From the NCBI RefSeq assembly GCF_011038975.1, contig NZ_JAAKEC010000008.1, positions 1 through 64,000 of the forward strand: DNA of 64,000 bases, read 5' to 3'. This document shows positions 31,753 through 51,126 of the stretch, piece by piece. Origin of the DNA: Adlercreutzia sp. ZJ176 (GTDB taxonomy: Bacteria; Actinomycetota; Coriobacteriia; Coriobacteriales; Eggerthellaceae). Positions within the stretch are counted from its first letter, which is position 1, and every line of letters begins with the position of its first letter. Below the pieces are notes generated by a model that was not told the origin of the DNA, searched no databases, and worked only from the letters and a program-made list of their open reading frames with translations. The translations under genes and the position numbers were made by a program.

Positions 31753-31794
31753 CGCATCAAGGCACGGAGGAGCGTCGACGAGAAGCCCTCGAAG

Positions 31795-31985
31795 CACCGA
31801 CAACGCCCTCTTTGCATCCACAGCTCGGGAAAGCTGGCTGGAAAACGCCCGTTGTCGGTGCTCCGGGCCCCGAAAACCACCGACAACGCGCATTCTCCAG
31901 CCACTTTTCTCAAAAAACCACCGACAACGCCCTTGTTTCATCCAGAATCACCTGAGGGGTGGATGGAAAAGCGCCGTTGTCGGTG
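31795..31985. repeat. Cluster of CACCGACAACGC palindromes, copy A
   Basis: CACCGACAACGC occurs three times in direct orientation (31795, 31878, 31919), and its complement (CGTTGTCGGTG) twice (ending 31860 and 31985). Two large stem-loops result, 31795-31860 and 31919-31985. The second also pairs CATCCA with TGGATG inside. The cluster lies between convergent gene ends and is duplicated at 35284-35472. Confidence 0.8.
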
Positions 31986-35241: not shown

Positions 35242-35283
35242 CGCATCGAAGTGAGGAGGAGCGCTGCCGAGAAGCCCTCGAAG

Positions 35284-35472
35284 CACCGACAACGCCCCTT
35301 TTGCATCCACGGCCCGGAAAAGCTGGCTGGAAAACGCGCGTTATCGGTGCTTCGGGCCCCTAAAACCACCGACAACGCGCCTTTTGCATCCACTTTTTCC
35401 GAGAAACCGCCGATAACGGCCTCGTTTCATCCAGAATCACCTGAGGGGTGGATGGAAAGCGCCGTTGTCGGT
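35284..35472. repeat. Cluster of CACCGACAACGC palindromes, copy B
   Basis: This is the duplicate of 31795-31985, with scattered base changes (for example TTATCGGTG for TTGTCGGTG). The two stem-loops are 35284-35348 and 35408-35472; the second keeps the CATCCA/TGGATG inner pairing. The duplicated segment as a whole spans about 35064-35520. Confidence 0.8.
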
Positions 35473-47935: not shown

Positions 47936-48700
47936 CTACAGGCGCACGGGGATGCCGCAGGAGCGCATGTGCTCCTTCACCTGGCGCACGGTGAGCTCGC
48001 CGAAGTGGAAGACGCTCGCGGCGAGCACGGCGTCGGCCTCGCCTTCGATGATGCCCTGCGCGAAGTGCTCGAGCTCGCCGACGCCGCCCGAGGCGATGAC
48101 CGGGATGTCCACGGCGCGCGCCACCACGCGGGTGAGCGCGCAGTCGAAGCCGTCGCGGCTGCCGTCGCGGTCCATGGACGTGAGCAGGATCTCGCCCGCG
48201 CCGCGCCGCGCGGCCTCCTGCGCCCACTCGACGGCGTCGATGCCCGTGGCGGTGCGCCCGCCCGCCACGTAGACCTCCCACTTGTTGGGGTTGCCCGCCA
48301 CCGCCTTCGCGTCAATGGCGCACAGGATCGCCTGCGTGCCGAACGCAGCGGCGGCCACCGTGATGAGCTCGGGGTTCTTCACCGCCGCCGAGTTCACGCT
48401 CACCTTGTCGGCGCCCGCGGCGATCATGCGGCGGATGTCGGCCACGCTGCGGAAGCCCCCGCCCACGCAGTACGGCAGGTGAAGCTCCTCGCTCGCGCGG
48501 CTCGCGAGCTCGACGGTGGTGGCGCGGTCGTCGGAGGTGGCCGTGATGTCGAGGAAGATGACCTCGTCGGCCTTCTGCTCGTCATAGGCGCGCGCGAGCT
48601 CGATGGGGTCGCCTGCGTCGCGCAAGTTCACGAAGTTGACGCCCTTGACCACGCGGCCGTCCTTCACGTCCATGCAGGGGATCACTCGCTTAGTTAACAT
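47936..48700 (-). CDS. hisF: Imidazole glycerol phosphate synthase, cyclase subunit HisF
   Basis: This 254-residue TIM-barrel enzyme starts [20 protein letters not shown], with the catalytic Asp in CMDVKDG. The second acid lies in [12 protein letters not shown]. With HisH it makes imidazole glycerol phosphate and AICAR. It follows hisA by about 240 nt, a gap that holds a palindromic element. Downstream, 255 nt separate it from the radical SAM gene. Confidence 0.97.
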
Positions 48701-48752
48701 GGGGAATCTTCCTCTTCCGCTGATGGTCTTCCTGAGCCGACGGAGGTGGCAC

Positions 48753-48877
48753 GGAACGGAGCTCAGTCGCTCGAGAGCGATGTGAAATGGTGCTCACCAA
48801 GCGAGTTCCGCACGAGCCGAAAGCGCCGGCGGCGCTTTCGTGCGAGCAGGACTGTTTGAGCGACTGAGCTCCGTTCC
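48753..48877. repeat. 125-bp palindromic element between hisA and hisF
   Basis: Perfect 20-bp terminal inverted repeats (GGAACGGAGCTCAGTCGCTC at 48753-48772 and its complement at 48858-48877) enclose this element. Inside lies an 82-bp unit (48789-48870) found again in hisH at 49991-50072. The unit folds into GCACGA/TCGTGC plus GAAAGCGCC/GGCGCTTTC with a 3-nt loop. No gene is present, although the frame across it encodes the same peptide as the hisH insert. Confidence 0.85.
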
Positions 48878-48936
48878 ACATCGCTCCCGCACACGCCTCA
48901 TTCCGCGCCACCTCCTGACGTTGCCAAGACGCGCTG

Positions 48937-49674
48937 CTATTCGCCGCTTGCGGCGGCACAGGCCGCCACGCCCTCCTCGACGGTGAGCGTGCCCTCGTAG
49001 ATGGCGCGGCCGGCGATGATGCCCTCGACGGCATGGGCCACGGGCGCGAGGCGCTCGACGTCGGCCACGCTGGCCACGCCGCCGCTCGCCACCACGGGAT
49101 GCCCGAACGCCTCGTGCATGAGCACGTACGCCTGCGGGTCGAGGCCGGTCTGCATGCCGTCGCGCGCGATGTCGGTGTACACGAGGTGCTCGTAGCCTGC
49201 GTCGGCCATGCGGCGCGCGAGCTCGTGCGCCGTGATGCCCGAGCCTTCGCACCAGCCCGACACGGCCACCTCGCCGCCCTTCGCGTCGATGCCCGCCACG
49301 AGCGCGCTCCCGCCGTACGCGGCCACCGCCTCGCGCGCGAACGCCGGGTCGCGCACGAGCGCCGTGCCGAGCACCACGCGCGTCACGCCCGCCGCCATGA
49401 GGCGCTCGATGGCGGCCATCGAGCGCACGCCGCCGCCCACCTCCACCTTCAGGTTGGTGGCGGCCAGAACGCGCTCGATCACCTCGACGTTGTCGGGGTT
49501 GCCCGACTTCGCGCCGTCGAGGTCGACCACGTGCAGCCAGGAGGCGCCCGCCGCCTCGAACGCGCGCGCCTGCGCCACGGGATCCTCGTTGTAGACCGTG
49601 ACCTGAGCGTAGTCGCCCTTCGCCAGGCGCACGGCGCGCCCGCCCAGAATGTCGATGGCCGGAAGCAGAAACAT
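48937..49674 (-). CDS. hisA: Phosphoribosylformimino-5-aminoimidazole carboxamide ribotide isomerase
   Basis: This 245-residue TIM-barrel enzyme starts MFLLPAIDILGGRAVRL, with the catalytic Asp in AIDILGG and the second in YTDIARDGM. It opens the ProFAR ring ahead of HisF/HisH. ATG 49674 has AAAGGACG in front and lies 16 nt after the hisH stop. In Streptomyces and Mycobacterium a HisA homologue (PriA) also serves tryptophan synthesis; that cannot be decided here. Confidence 0.96.
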   Translation of the reverse strand: MFLLPAIDILGGRAVRLAKGDYAQVTVYNEDPVAQARAFEAAGASWLHVVDLDGAKSGNPDNVEVIERVLAATNLKVEVGGGVRSMAAIERLMAAGVTRVVLGTALVRDPAFAREAVAAYGGSALVAGIDAKGGEVAVSGWCEGSGITAHELARRMADAGYEHLVYTDIARDGMQTGLDPQAYVLMHEAFGHPVVASGGVASVADVERLAPVAHAVEGIIAGRAIYEGTLTVEEGVAACAAASGE

Positions 49675-49690
49675 GGCCCACGTCCTTTCG

Positions 49691-50539
49691 CTAGATCTCG
49701 CCCACGATGCGCACGAAGTTCGCGAGCACCTTCGCACCCGCGTCCGAGCTCTTCTCGGGATGGAACTGCACGCCGAACACGCGGTCACGGTACTGCACCG
49801 CGCACGGGAACGTGACCGAGTGCGTCGTCACGGCCACGGTGGCCGGCGTGTCGGGTGCCACGTAGCTGTGCGTGAAGTAGAAGAACTCCCCCGGCGCCAC
49901 GCCGTCGAACAGCGGACAAGCGAATTCAGCCTGTCCGCTCCCGCTGGGGACGACGGCACACGGCACGGCCTCGTCGCCGGGGGCGGGAGCGGTGCTCACC
50001 AAGCGAGTTCCGCACGAGCCGGAAGCGCCGGCGGCGCTTCCGTGCGAGCAGGACTGTCCGAGCGACTGAGCTTTGCTCCCGCCCCCGGCGACCCCGAGCG
50101 CACCCGCGCCCGCGCCCGCCGGAACGACGGCGTTCCACCCCACGTGCGGCACCTTGTAGGCGCGCCCCGCGGCGTCGACGCGCGGCATCCTTCCCACCAC
50201 GCCGGGCAGGATCGCGAGCCCGCGCGGGCGGCGCGGCTCCTCGCCTTCGCCAACCTCGGGCGCGCCCTCCTCGCCCTCCTCGAACATGAGGTGCTCGCCC
50301 AGGCAGATGCCGAGGAACGGCACGCCGGCGTCCACGCGCGCGCGGACGGCCTCCATCTGCCCAAGCTCGGCCATGGTGGCCGCCGCGTCGGCGAAGGCGC
50401 CCACGCCCGGCAGCACGATGGCGTCGGCGCGCGCGATCACGTCCACGTCGTCGGTGATGCGCGCGTCGCCGCCCACCGCGGCCAGGCCGCGCTCGACGCT
50501 CTTCAGGTTCCCCTTGTGGTAGTCGACGACCGCTATCAC
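49691..50539 (-). CDS. hisH: Imidazole glycerol phosphate synthase glutaminase subunit HisH, with in-frame palindromic insertion
   Basis: This 282-residue protein is a class I glutaminase with Cys79 (GICLGEH), His260 and Glu262 (FHPEK). It feeds ammonia to HisF. Usual HisH length is about 200-215. The excess lies between VGWNAVVP (140) and CPLFDG (208), normally a short loop before the LF-G segment. About 29 of the extra residues (156-184, AQSLGQSCSHGSAAGASG) are encoded by the 82-bp palindromic unit also found between hisA and hisF. The rest is Gly/Ala/Pro-rich. The triad is intact, so the enzyme probably works. GTG overlaps the hisB stop. Confidence 0.93.
   Translation of the reverse strand: MIAVVDYHKGNLKSVERGLAAVGGDARITDDVDVIARADAIVLPGVGAFADAAATMAELGQMEAVRARVDAGVPFLGICLGEHLMFEEGEEGAPEVGEGEEPRRPRGLAILPGVVGRMPRVDAAGRAYKVPHVGWNAVVPAGAGAGALGVAGGGSKAQSLGQSCSHGSAAGASGSCGTRLVSTAPAPGDEAVPCAVVPSGSGQAEFACPLFDGVAPGEFFYFTHSYVAPDTPATVAVTTHSVTFPCAVQYRDRVFGVQFHPEKSSDAGAKVLANFVRIVGEI
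49991..50072. repeat. 82-bp palindromic unit inside hisH
   Basis: This is the second copy of the unit at 48789-48870, about 94 percent identical by eye. In the central stem both partners change together (GAAAGCGCC/GGCGCTTTC there, GGAAGCGCC/GGCGCTTCC here), so pairing is kept. It is read in frame as part of the HisH loop insertion. Confidence 0.85.
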
Positions 50540-51126
50540 AGCGCCCCCTTGGTCGAGGGCAGCGCGTCGCCCACGCGCGCATCGAGCTCGCACGCCTGGC
50601 GCAGCGCGCGGCCGCACGCCTTGAACGAGGCCTCCACCAGGTGGTGCGCGTTCTCACCCGCCAGCTGGCGGACATGCAGCGTCACGCCGGCGTTGGCGGC
50701 CAGCGCGATGAGGAACTCCTTCGCGAGCGACGTGTCGAACATCCCCAGCAGGCAGAGCGGCACGTCGACGGCGTAGTGCAGCTGGCCGCGCCCCGAGATG
50801 TCGCACGCGGCGAGCACGAGCGCCTCGTCCATGGGCAGCAGCTGCGAGCCGAAGCGCGCGATGCCGCGCTTGTCGCCGAGCGCGCGGGCGATGGCCTGCC
50901 CCAGCACGATGCCGACGTCCTCCACCGTATGGTGCGCGTCGACCTCGACGTCGCCGCGCGCCCGCACGCGCAGGTCGAACAGGCCGTGGCGCCCGAAGGC
51001 GTCGAGCATGTGGTCGAAGAACGGCACGCCGGTGTCGACGTCGACGACGCCCGTGCCGTCCAGGTTGATCTCGACGCTGATGTCGGTTTCCTTGGTGGTG
51101 CGCTCCACCGTTGCGGTTCTGCTCAC
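50536..51126 (-). CDS. hisB: Imidazoleglycerol-phosphate dehydratase
   Basis: This 196-residue enzyme removes water from imidazole glycerol phosphate. The two metal-binding His clusters are present (DAHHTVEDVG and GENAHHLVEASFKA), and FFDHMLDAFGRHG near the start. It is the single-domain form without the phosphatase domain of E. coli HisB. It follows hisC by 19 nt and overlaps hisH by GTGA. Confidence 0.97.
   Translation of the reverse strand: MSRTATVERTTKETDISVEINLDGTGVVDVDTGVPFFDHMLDAFGRHGLFDLRVRARGDVEVDAHHTVEDVGIVLGQAIARALGDKRGIARFGSQLLPMDEALVLAACDISGRGQLHYAVDVPLCLLGMFDTSLAKEFLIALAANAGVTLHVRQLAGENAHHLVEASFKACGRALRQACELDARVGDALPSTKGAL

Follow-up and report, generated by a model that had tools for sequence, protein, structure and literature searches.

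The palindromic repeat found twice in the his region of the window (the whole stretch of DNA analyzed, 64,000 nucleotides long) is probably a non-autonomous mobile DNA hairpin of the order of its hosts, which we take to be the Coriobacteriales. It resembles the Rickettsia palindromic elements (RPE), and its arms are likely to be homogenized, and its core flipped, by template switching. We give this reading a probability of about 60%.

Two element copies in the his region

The source genome, G000, is 2.72 Mb in size and belongs to the Eggerthellaceae; G028 is its genus mate. The features of the his region are the following.

47936–48700, minus strand: hisF, from the ORF list
48753–48772, plus strand: inverted copy of the right end of the element (48858–48877), left of the hisA–hisF hairpin; inverted repeat I20, 20 nt, 100%
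48772–48796, plus strand: left arm of the hisA–hisF hairpin; inverted repeat I16, 25 nt, 84% complementary to 48865–48889
48789–48870, plus strand: element core in the hisA–hisF spacer, from similarity, inverted repeats and the covariance model
48865–48889, plus strand: right arm of the hisA–hisF hairpin; inverted repeat I16
48937–49674, minus strand: hisA, its start set by us at the codons for MFLLPAIDIL within a longer frame
49691–50542, minus strand: hisH, 283 aa, with in-frame read-through of the element, from ORF and translation
49973–49998, plus strand: left arm of the hisH hairpin; inverted repeat I10, 26 nt, 88% complementary to 50067–50092, overlapping the start of the 82-bp unit
49991–50072, plus strand (antisense to hisH): element core inside hisH, from similarity, inverted repeats and the covariance model
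50067–50092, plus strand: right arm of the hisH hairpin; inverted repeat I10

An earlier note on this DNA had described an 82-bp unit at 48789–48870 and 49991–50072, and both positions were verified. The two copies are 92% identical over 89 nt and 95% identical over 82 nt. The unit is a real repeat, but it was drawn too short: inverted repeats and folding extend the hairpin outward into site-specific arms. The covariance model, which includes both copies among its 82 sequences, scores them at 113 and 108 bits. The next match in the window reaches 18 bits and is the opposite strand of one his-region copy. None of the Rfam families matched the window at its gathering score, and all scores in the 48700–50150 fragment were far below it.

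The hisH copy is read in frame, as had been proposed, within a 283-aa HisH, where it lies in the loop between HVGWNAVVP and CPLFDG. The Cys-His-Glu triad is likewise intact: C79, H260 and E262 (alignment numbering), presumably the amidotransferase triad residues, are invariant in 30 sequences. In the structural model of HisH, residues 149–196, with the insert inside, have a pLDDT below 50; the rest is mostly confident, and the mean pLDDT is 80.6.

Hairpin anatomy and covariation

Three layers are seen in the 82 aligned copies (alignment A1, from which 10 of 92 copies were excluded for their other lengths): an inner stem, a near-invariant short helix with conserved internal-loop strands, and outer arms. 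The inner stem is variable and has about 10 bp. It is enclosed by the conserved asymmetric internal-loop core with the consensus CACCAAGCGAGTTCCGCA ... CAGGACTGTYYGAGCGACTG, outside which lie variable arms of about 15–25 bp. In the inner stem 9 of 10 pairs, and in the outer arms 15 of the 16 pairs counted, have changed on both sides; the middle helix is almost invariant, and overall two-sided change affects 24 of 31 pairs. The proportion of paired cells is 95.7%, compared with 74.0% in shuffles and 36–42% (maximum 42.4%) with the partner slid, and the covariation is 0.576, compared with 0.171 in shuffles and at most 0.116 when slid, for a structure drawn by us from these same sequences.

The left arm matches its own right arm with a mean score of 13.5 and the arms of other copies with 4.7 (78 records); the right boundary was misplaced by the pattern in 21 of these records, which lowers the own-arm mean. 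By eye, the core-adjacent positions of the arms in G000 are common to most copies and the remainder is site-specific. In the loci L091, L018 and L114, the inner stem is framed by a reversed internal-loop motif (AGCGACTGG ... CCACCAAGCGAG or a variant), like a doubled or nested module. In genus g2 (L162–L216), some elements form opposed pairs joined by the short palindrome CTCAACC..GGTTGAG, and many copies have shared end motifs such as GCGTAGAGG and CCGACCG..GAGCCGC beyond the arms, both by eye. The full unit in this genus may be about 160 bp long.

Copy number and host range

The similarity search in G000 gave 20 matches, two of which are the other strand of copies already counted, leaving 18 copies. 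The covariance model matches at E ≤0.01 number 24 in G000, 22 in G028, 39 in G004 and 52 in G009. Further copies had been expected, and they are present both in this genome (18, or 24 by model) and in many relatives; the opposite outcome, no further copies, did not occur. The element is present in 76 of 138 genomes of the host family, which agrees with the earlier proposal of a dispersed palindrome in a high-GC actinobacterium.

Of 288 class genomes, 50 have the exact core pattern, and all 50 fall into three families of one order. The pattern is present in 10 of 396 genomes across the phylum and in none of the 358 that lie outside the class. The reversed-pattern control gave 0 among the matches listed. 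The exact pattern is blind to diverged copies: G004, with 39 model matches, has no exact one. The covariance model is positive in 149 of 296 class genomes, a number to which long generic hairpins could contribute. Five high-scoring model matches, which all come from family f3 within the order, were inspected, and the core is visible in each. Since the exact pattern is confined to three families of one order, we limit the claim to the order, and the class-wide range implied by the model was dropped. The earlier note had placed the element in a high-GC actinobacterium, which holds, and its exact core extends to three families of the order.

Many copies are intergenic, and the stems are GC-rich, as would be expected of ordinary transcription terminators or of palindromes arising by chance at high GC content. 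The near-invariance of the core strands, the taxon-limited exact pattern and the presence of copies within genes and within an operon (hisA–hisF) refute this explanation, the probability of which is negligible.

A phage was considered as a possible vector: in IMG/VR, one stretch carries an exact 17-nt piece of the core. Among the open-licence papers listed, none describes the element in its title or abstract opening, and words of the core sequence had no match there. Another repeat, dispersed and about 55 bp long, includes CCAGCCAGCTTTCCCGAGCCGTGGCTGC and lies at 31792–31847 and 35281–35336 of the window, both on the minus strand, and in the left flank of L015. It has more than 15 matches across G000 and further matches in G028 and G029.

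Copies read inside proteins

Seven of the 18 copies in G000 lie in long frames judged to be coding by base composition; one of the seven is probably located upstream of the thyX start. In-frame copies (6 of 18) are those in HisH, TrmD, Mfd, an ABC-F ATPase, TsaB and a CoA-enzyme activase. The last name refers to a protein with BcrAD and DUF2229 domains, and the host taken for TsaB is the part of a fusion upstream of acetyltransferase and TsaD domains. One codon register serves both orientations: of the 82 copies, 64 keep it open in the forward direction and 75 in the mirrored one.

The HisH loop contains the core in 14 of 30 orthologues (10 sense, 4 antisense) and a partial core in one more; the 30 were the top scorers among 123 genomes, out of 137, that an insert-bearing query matched, so that insert carriers are over-represented and the proportion is not a frequency. 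The earlier note had asked whether the insertion is recent. It does not look so, the same loop being occupied in both orientations in the orthologues. Relatives with an element-free HisH do exist: in the motif test, 15 of the 30 are without the core, and the loop is short in 11 of these. The second refuting outcome named in the note, an unrelated loop of equal length, applies by this test to four of the 30 (L085, L086, L088 and L092), of which only two remain by eye, as L085 and L086 show a shortened core. In the element-free HisH of L097, a simple 12-bp hairpin occupies the same loop. The HisH locus of G064 (L083, genus g26) has a second, shortened element at about 2065–2150, and a direct repeat, GGACCAGGTTGAA, outside both arms; it is possible that this repeat is a target-site duplication.

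Eleven of the 14 parsed TrmD loops have at least one core, some of them degenerate, and three have none; 16 of the 30 loci were left unparsed by the motif. In the trmD gene of G028 (L145), a truncated first and a full second element lie in one loop with the frame kept. The same HisH and TrmD loops are occupied across genera.

Arm changes and core inversions between sister species

Twenty site pairs of sister species were compared; another five of the 25 were uncounted, three for unlike arms and two for a core that was not parsed. The L001 pair compares the hisH copy and not the hisA–hisF copy. Differences affect 53 of the 360 arm pairs in these 20 site pairs; 26 have changed on both sides, and 24 of the 26 still pair. 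A subtotal of 17 pairs excludes L169, L174 and L179, which may pair different copies. Here 34 of 306 arm pairs differ: 23 have changed on one side only, and 11 are two-sided, 10 of which still pair; independence predicts about 2.

The core is inverted at three of 11 sites shared by G000 and G028: hisA–hisF, ABC-F and Mfd. L006 and L013 were left out of this set for unequal copy number, and second overlapping or degenerate matches in L009 and L011 were ignored. The arms are kept in the ABC-F and Mfd flips. In the ABC-F flip, the protein segment reads AQSLGQSCSH in one sister species and AHQASSARA in the other. None of nine clean single-copy sites is inverted between G004 and G009, and flipping may be rare or lineage-bound. 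The nine-site set leaves out L179/L210, L174/L191, L184/L204 and L134/L130, and also L181/L215 and L186/L201, in one or both members of which the pattern found no copy. In G028, the 48753–48772 stretch corresponds to the start of a single, oppositely oriented element. We take this stretch to be what an inversion or a template switch left behind.

Template switching between inverted repeats has been reported to result in arm homogenization and spacer inversion (PMC8604942), and it can maintain hairpins (PMC8794818). The inverted yeast spacers in PMC8604942 are substitutions of 2–5 bp, much shorter than the core of the element. The earlier note had observed that both partners of the inner stems differ between the two his-region copies, as if folding were under selection. 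The two-sided changes are confirmed, but selection on folding is not required to explain them, since template switching can copy one arm onto the other.

The stems might nevertheless be kept by selection. The hairpin, as single-stranded DNA or RNA, would then serve a transposase, nuclease or regulator as substrate, and the double changes would be compensatory mutations. Covariation as strong as this, around an internal loop that is itself conserved, usually marks a selected structure, and the exact core is common to three families of the order. Both orientations in one coding loop and the flips between sister species, however, make the function of a single RNA strand unlikely. Selection on the stems is also compatible with template switching, and both may act together. 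We consider it a serious alternative, though an unlikely one. We prefer template switching to selection alone because arm homogenization and spacer inversion are its reported products; we infer it from patterns, and a very similar one would arise from selection on pairing. To explain why the core is conserved, selection on the core is required.

Empty sites and the origin of the arms

Flank queries of 26 loci from the sister species G004 and G009, which are 94.5% identical around trmD, were mapped back. Ten sites were fetched because a short flank spacing pointed to an empty counterpart in the other species, and the core is absent at all ten counterparts. The core is also missing from the counterpart of L013 in G029, which has about 10 bp between the genes; the L013 site has two tandem copies in G000, one inverted copy in G028 and none in G029. 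Of the 22 arms compared with the 11 empty sites, 20 score no higher than the 95% point obtained with shuffled sequence. The other two exceed this point by one base each, and both arms together exceed it at none of the 11 sites. L211, the copy used for one empty site, has 11 of 20 arm positions paired. Core and paired arms are thus missing together at the 11 sister-species empty sites, which implies that whole hairpins insert. The mobility suggested in the earlier note is supported by these sites.

The empty sites also bear on the possibility that the core inserts at the tip of pre-existing hairpins, for example terminators, and that the arms are the target's own. The arms vary by site, as this would predict, and most G000 cores are 87–96% identical to the window copy. 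REPs inside palindromes are mentioned in PMC3733652, and the hairpin in the L097 HisH could represent such a target. At trmD, G000 lacks the second G028 copy but, by eye, already has the sequence of its right arm, and at least one arm of this copy may come from the target. The absence of paired arms at 11 of 11 empty sites speaks against target hairpins as a general rule, and the arms in genus g2 show a recognizable consensus across copies (by eye), as though they were carried along. An origin of this kind may hold at single sites; as the explanation of the element it is improbable.

Two G004/G009 sites, L166/L194 and L185/L205, carry elements with unrelated arms, which are not easily explained by drift alone. 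No target-site duplication was established for the element copies, and this counts against the explanation that we prefer.

Search for a mobilizing enzyme

No mobilizing enzyme was found, and this is the weakest part of our account. The Y1 transposase (RAYT) family PF01797 is present in 137 of 292 genomes of the class. It has no match in G000, G028, G001 or G004, all of which have many copies of the element. In 15 genomes with model matches, fragments of 2.3–2.4 kb around 20 RAYT-like genes were fetched, and none contains the core. No transposase was recognized by eye near the copies among the representatives of the eight largest clusters of 735 ORFs; these clusters are housekeeping genes and reversed-strand artefacts (by eye). 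The RAYT-like genes L227, L231, L235 and L239 are flanked on each side by short palindromes of a different sequence, which may belong to a separate REP system.

The size, copy number and opposed pairs of the element are REP-like, and it might be a GTAG-type REP or REPIN moved by a RAYT, a Y1 HUH transposase. In genus g2, 24 of 51 copies have the tetranucleotide GTAG 14–50 nt upstream of the core, compared with 8 of 51 in a control stretch. However, it precedes only 3 of 17 copies in G000 and 0 of 13 in G028. The tetranucleotide CGTC is found upstream of the core in 4 of 17, 4 of 13, 1 of 24 and 2 of 27 copies, and the element stems are far longer than the 8–9 bp of CGTC REPs. With no PF01797 in the four carrier genomes and no core at the 20 RAYT-like loci, an origin from RAYT and REP is not supported, and we give it little credence.

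Proposed mechanism

Whole hairpins are gained or lost at sites, as the sister-species empty sites show. We propose that the conserved core is most likely recognized by a putative mobilizing protein. In the stems, pairing would suffice and the sequence would be free. Polymerase template switching between the arms would copy one arm onto the other, so that pairing is kept and the sequence drifts, as the two-sided changes suggest. At times, to judge from the flips, it would also invert the core in place. Since most copies have the codon register open on both strands, an insertion or a later flip could spare the frame. Copies would persist in proteins that can accommodate a disordered loop or linker, as modelled for HisH only.

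A bolder version of this proposal is held more tentatively, as somewhat less probable than not. The element would have no fixed arms: a small asymmetric core would be inherited as sequence, and the palindrome as a shape continually rewritten, mended and flipped by replication errors, which would rewrite and invert segments of conserved enzymes in frame. The mobilizer would then be a new kind of activity, because no Y1 transposase was found in four of the genomes tested.

The best-known protein-coding selfish palindromes are those of Rickettsia and Wolbachia, and there are scattered cases within genes elsewhere (PMC2229807, PMC3733652). The element adds a further case in common gut bacteria, and its many orthologous sites can be used as a test set for selection versus template switching as the cause of stem covariation. 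This cause bears on every RNA structure inference drawn from covariation. The element also points to a route by which conserved proteins may acquire long disordered loops and have these inverted.

Comparison with known systems

The GTAG and CGTC REPs described in PMC3733652 are likewise small dispersed palindromes, often in opposed pairs and some of them intragenic, and the CGTC REPs are also without a dedicated transposase. Their stems have 5–13 bp or 8–9 bp, with a GTAG or CGTC tag at one end. In contrast, the element has about 26 variable and five constant pairs around internal loops, it lacks a CGTC tag, and no link to RAYT was found. Eggerthella, Slackia and Collinsella are absent from the main text of that paper. 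RU-1, RU-2 and RU-3 of enterobacteria (PMC2759123) are small mobile repeats with open frames and gene fusions as well; they are called MITE-like, and the abstract does not mention site-specific covarying arms. MITEs have fixed terminal inverted repeats of a known transposon and a target-site duplication. The arms of the element vary in sequence. The coding palindromes of nematomorph mitochondria (PMC6649704) are perfect inverted repeats kept in translated genes. Both of their arms encode conserved protein regions, and a dispersed core family is not mentioned in the abstract.

The RPE, as described in the review PMC2229807, are palindromes of 105–146 bp that form long stem-loops and are intergenic or fused in frame in genes for conserved proteins. 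The resemblance suggested earlier is one of architecture: the element is also a dispersed palindrome of about this length that folds into a long stem-loop, and has both intergenic and in-frame copies, the latter again in conserved protein genes (here 6 of 18). It differs from the RPE in that its arms are site-specific and covarying, its core is flipped between sister species, it fills the same HisH and TrmD loops across genera, and its hosts form a high-GC actinobacterial order. The palindrome family is real and widespread, it differs in presence and absence between sister species, it is RPE-like in its working, and the tests do not place it among REPs of the RAYT type.
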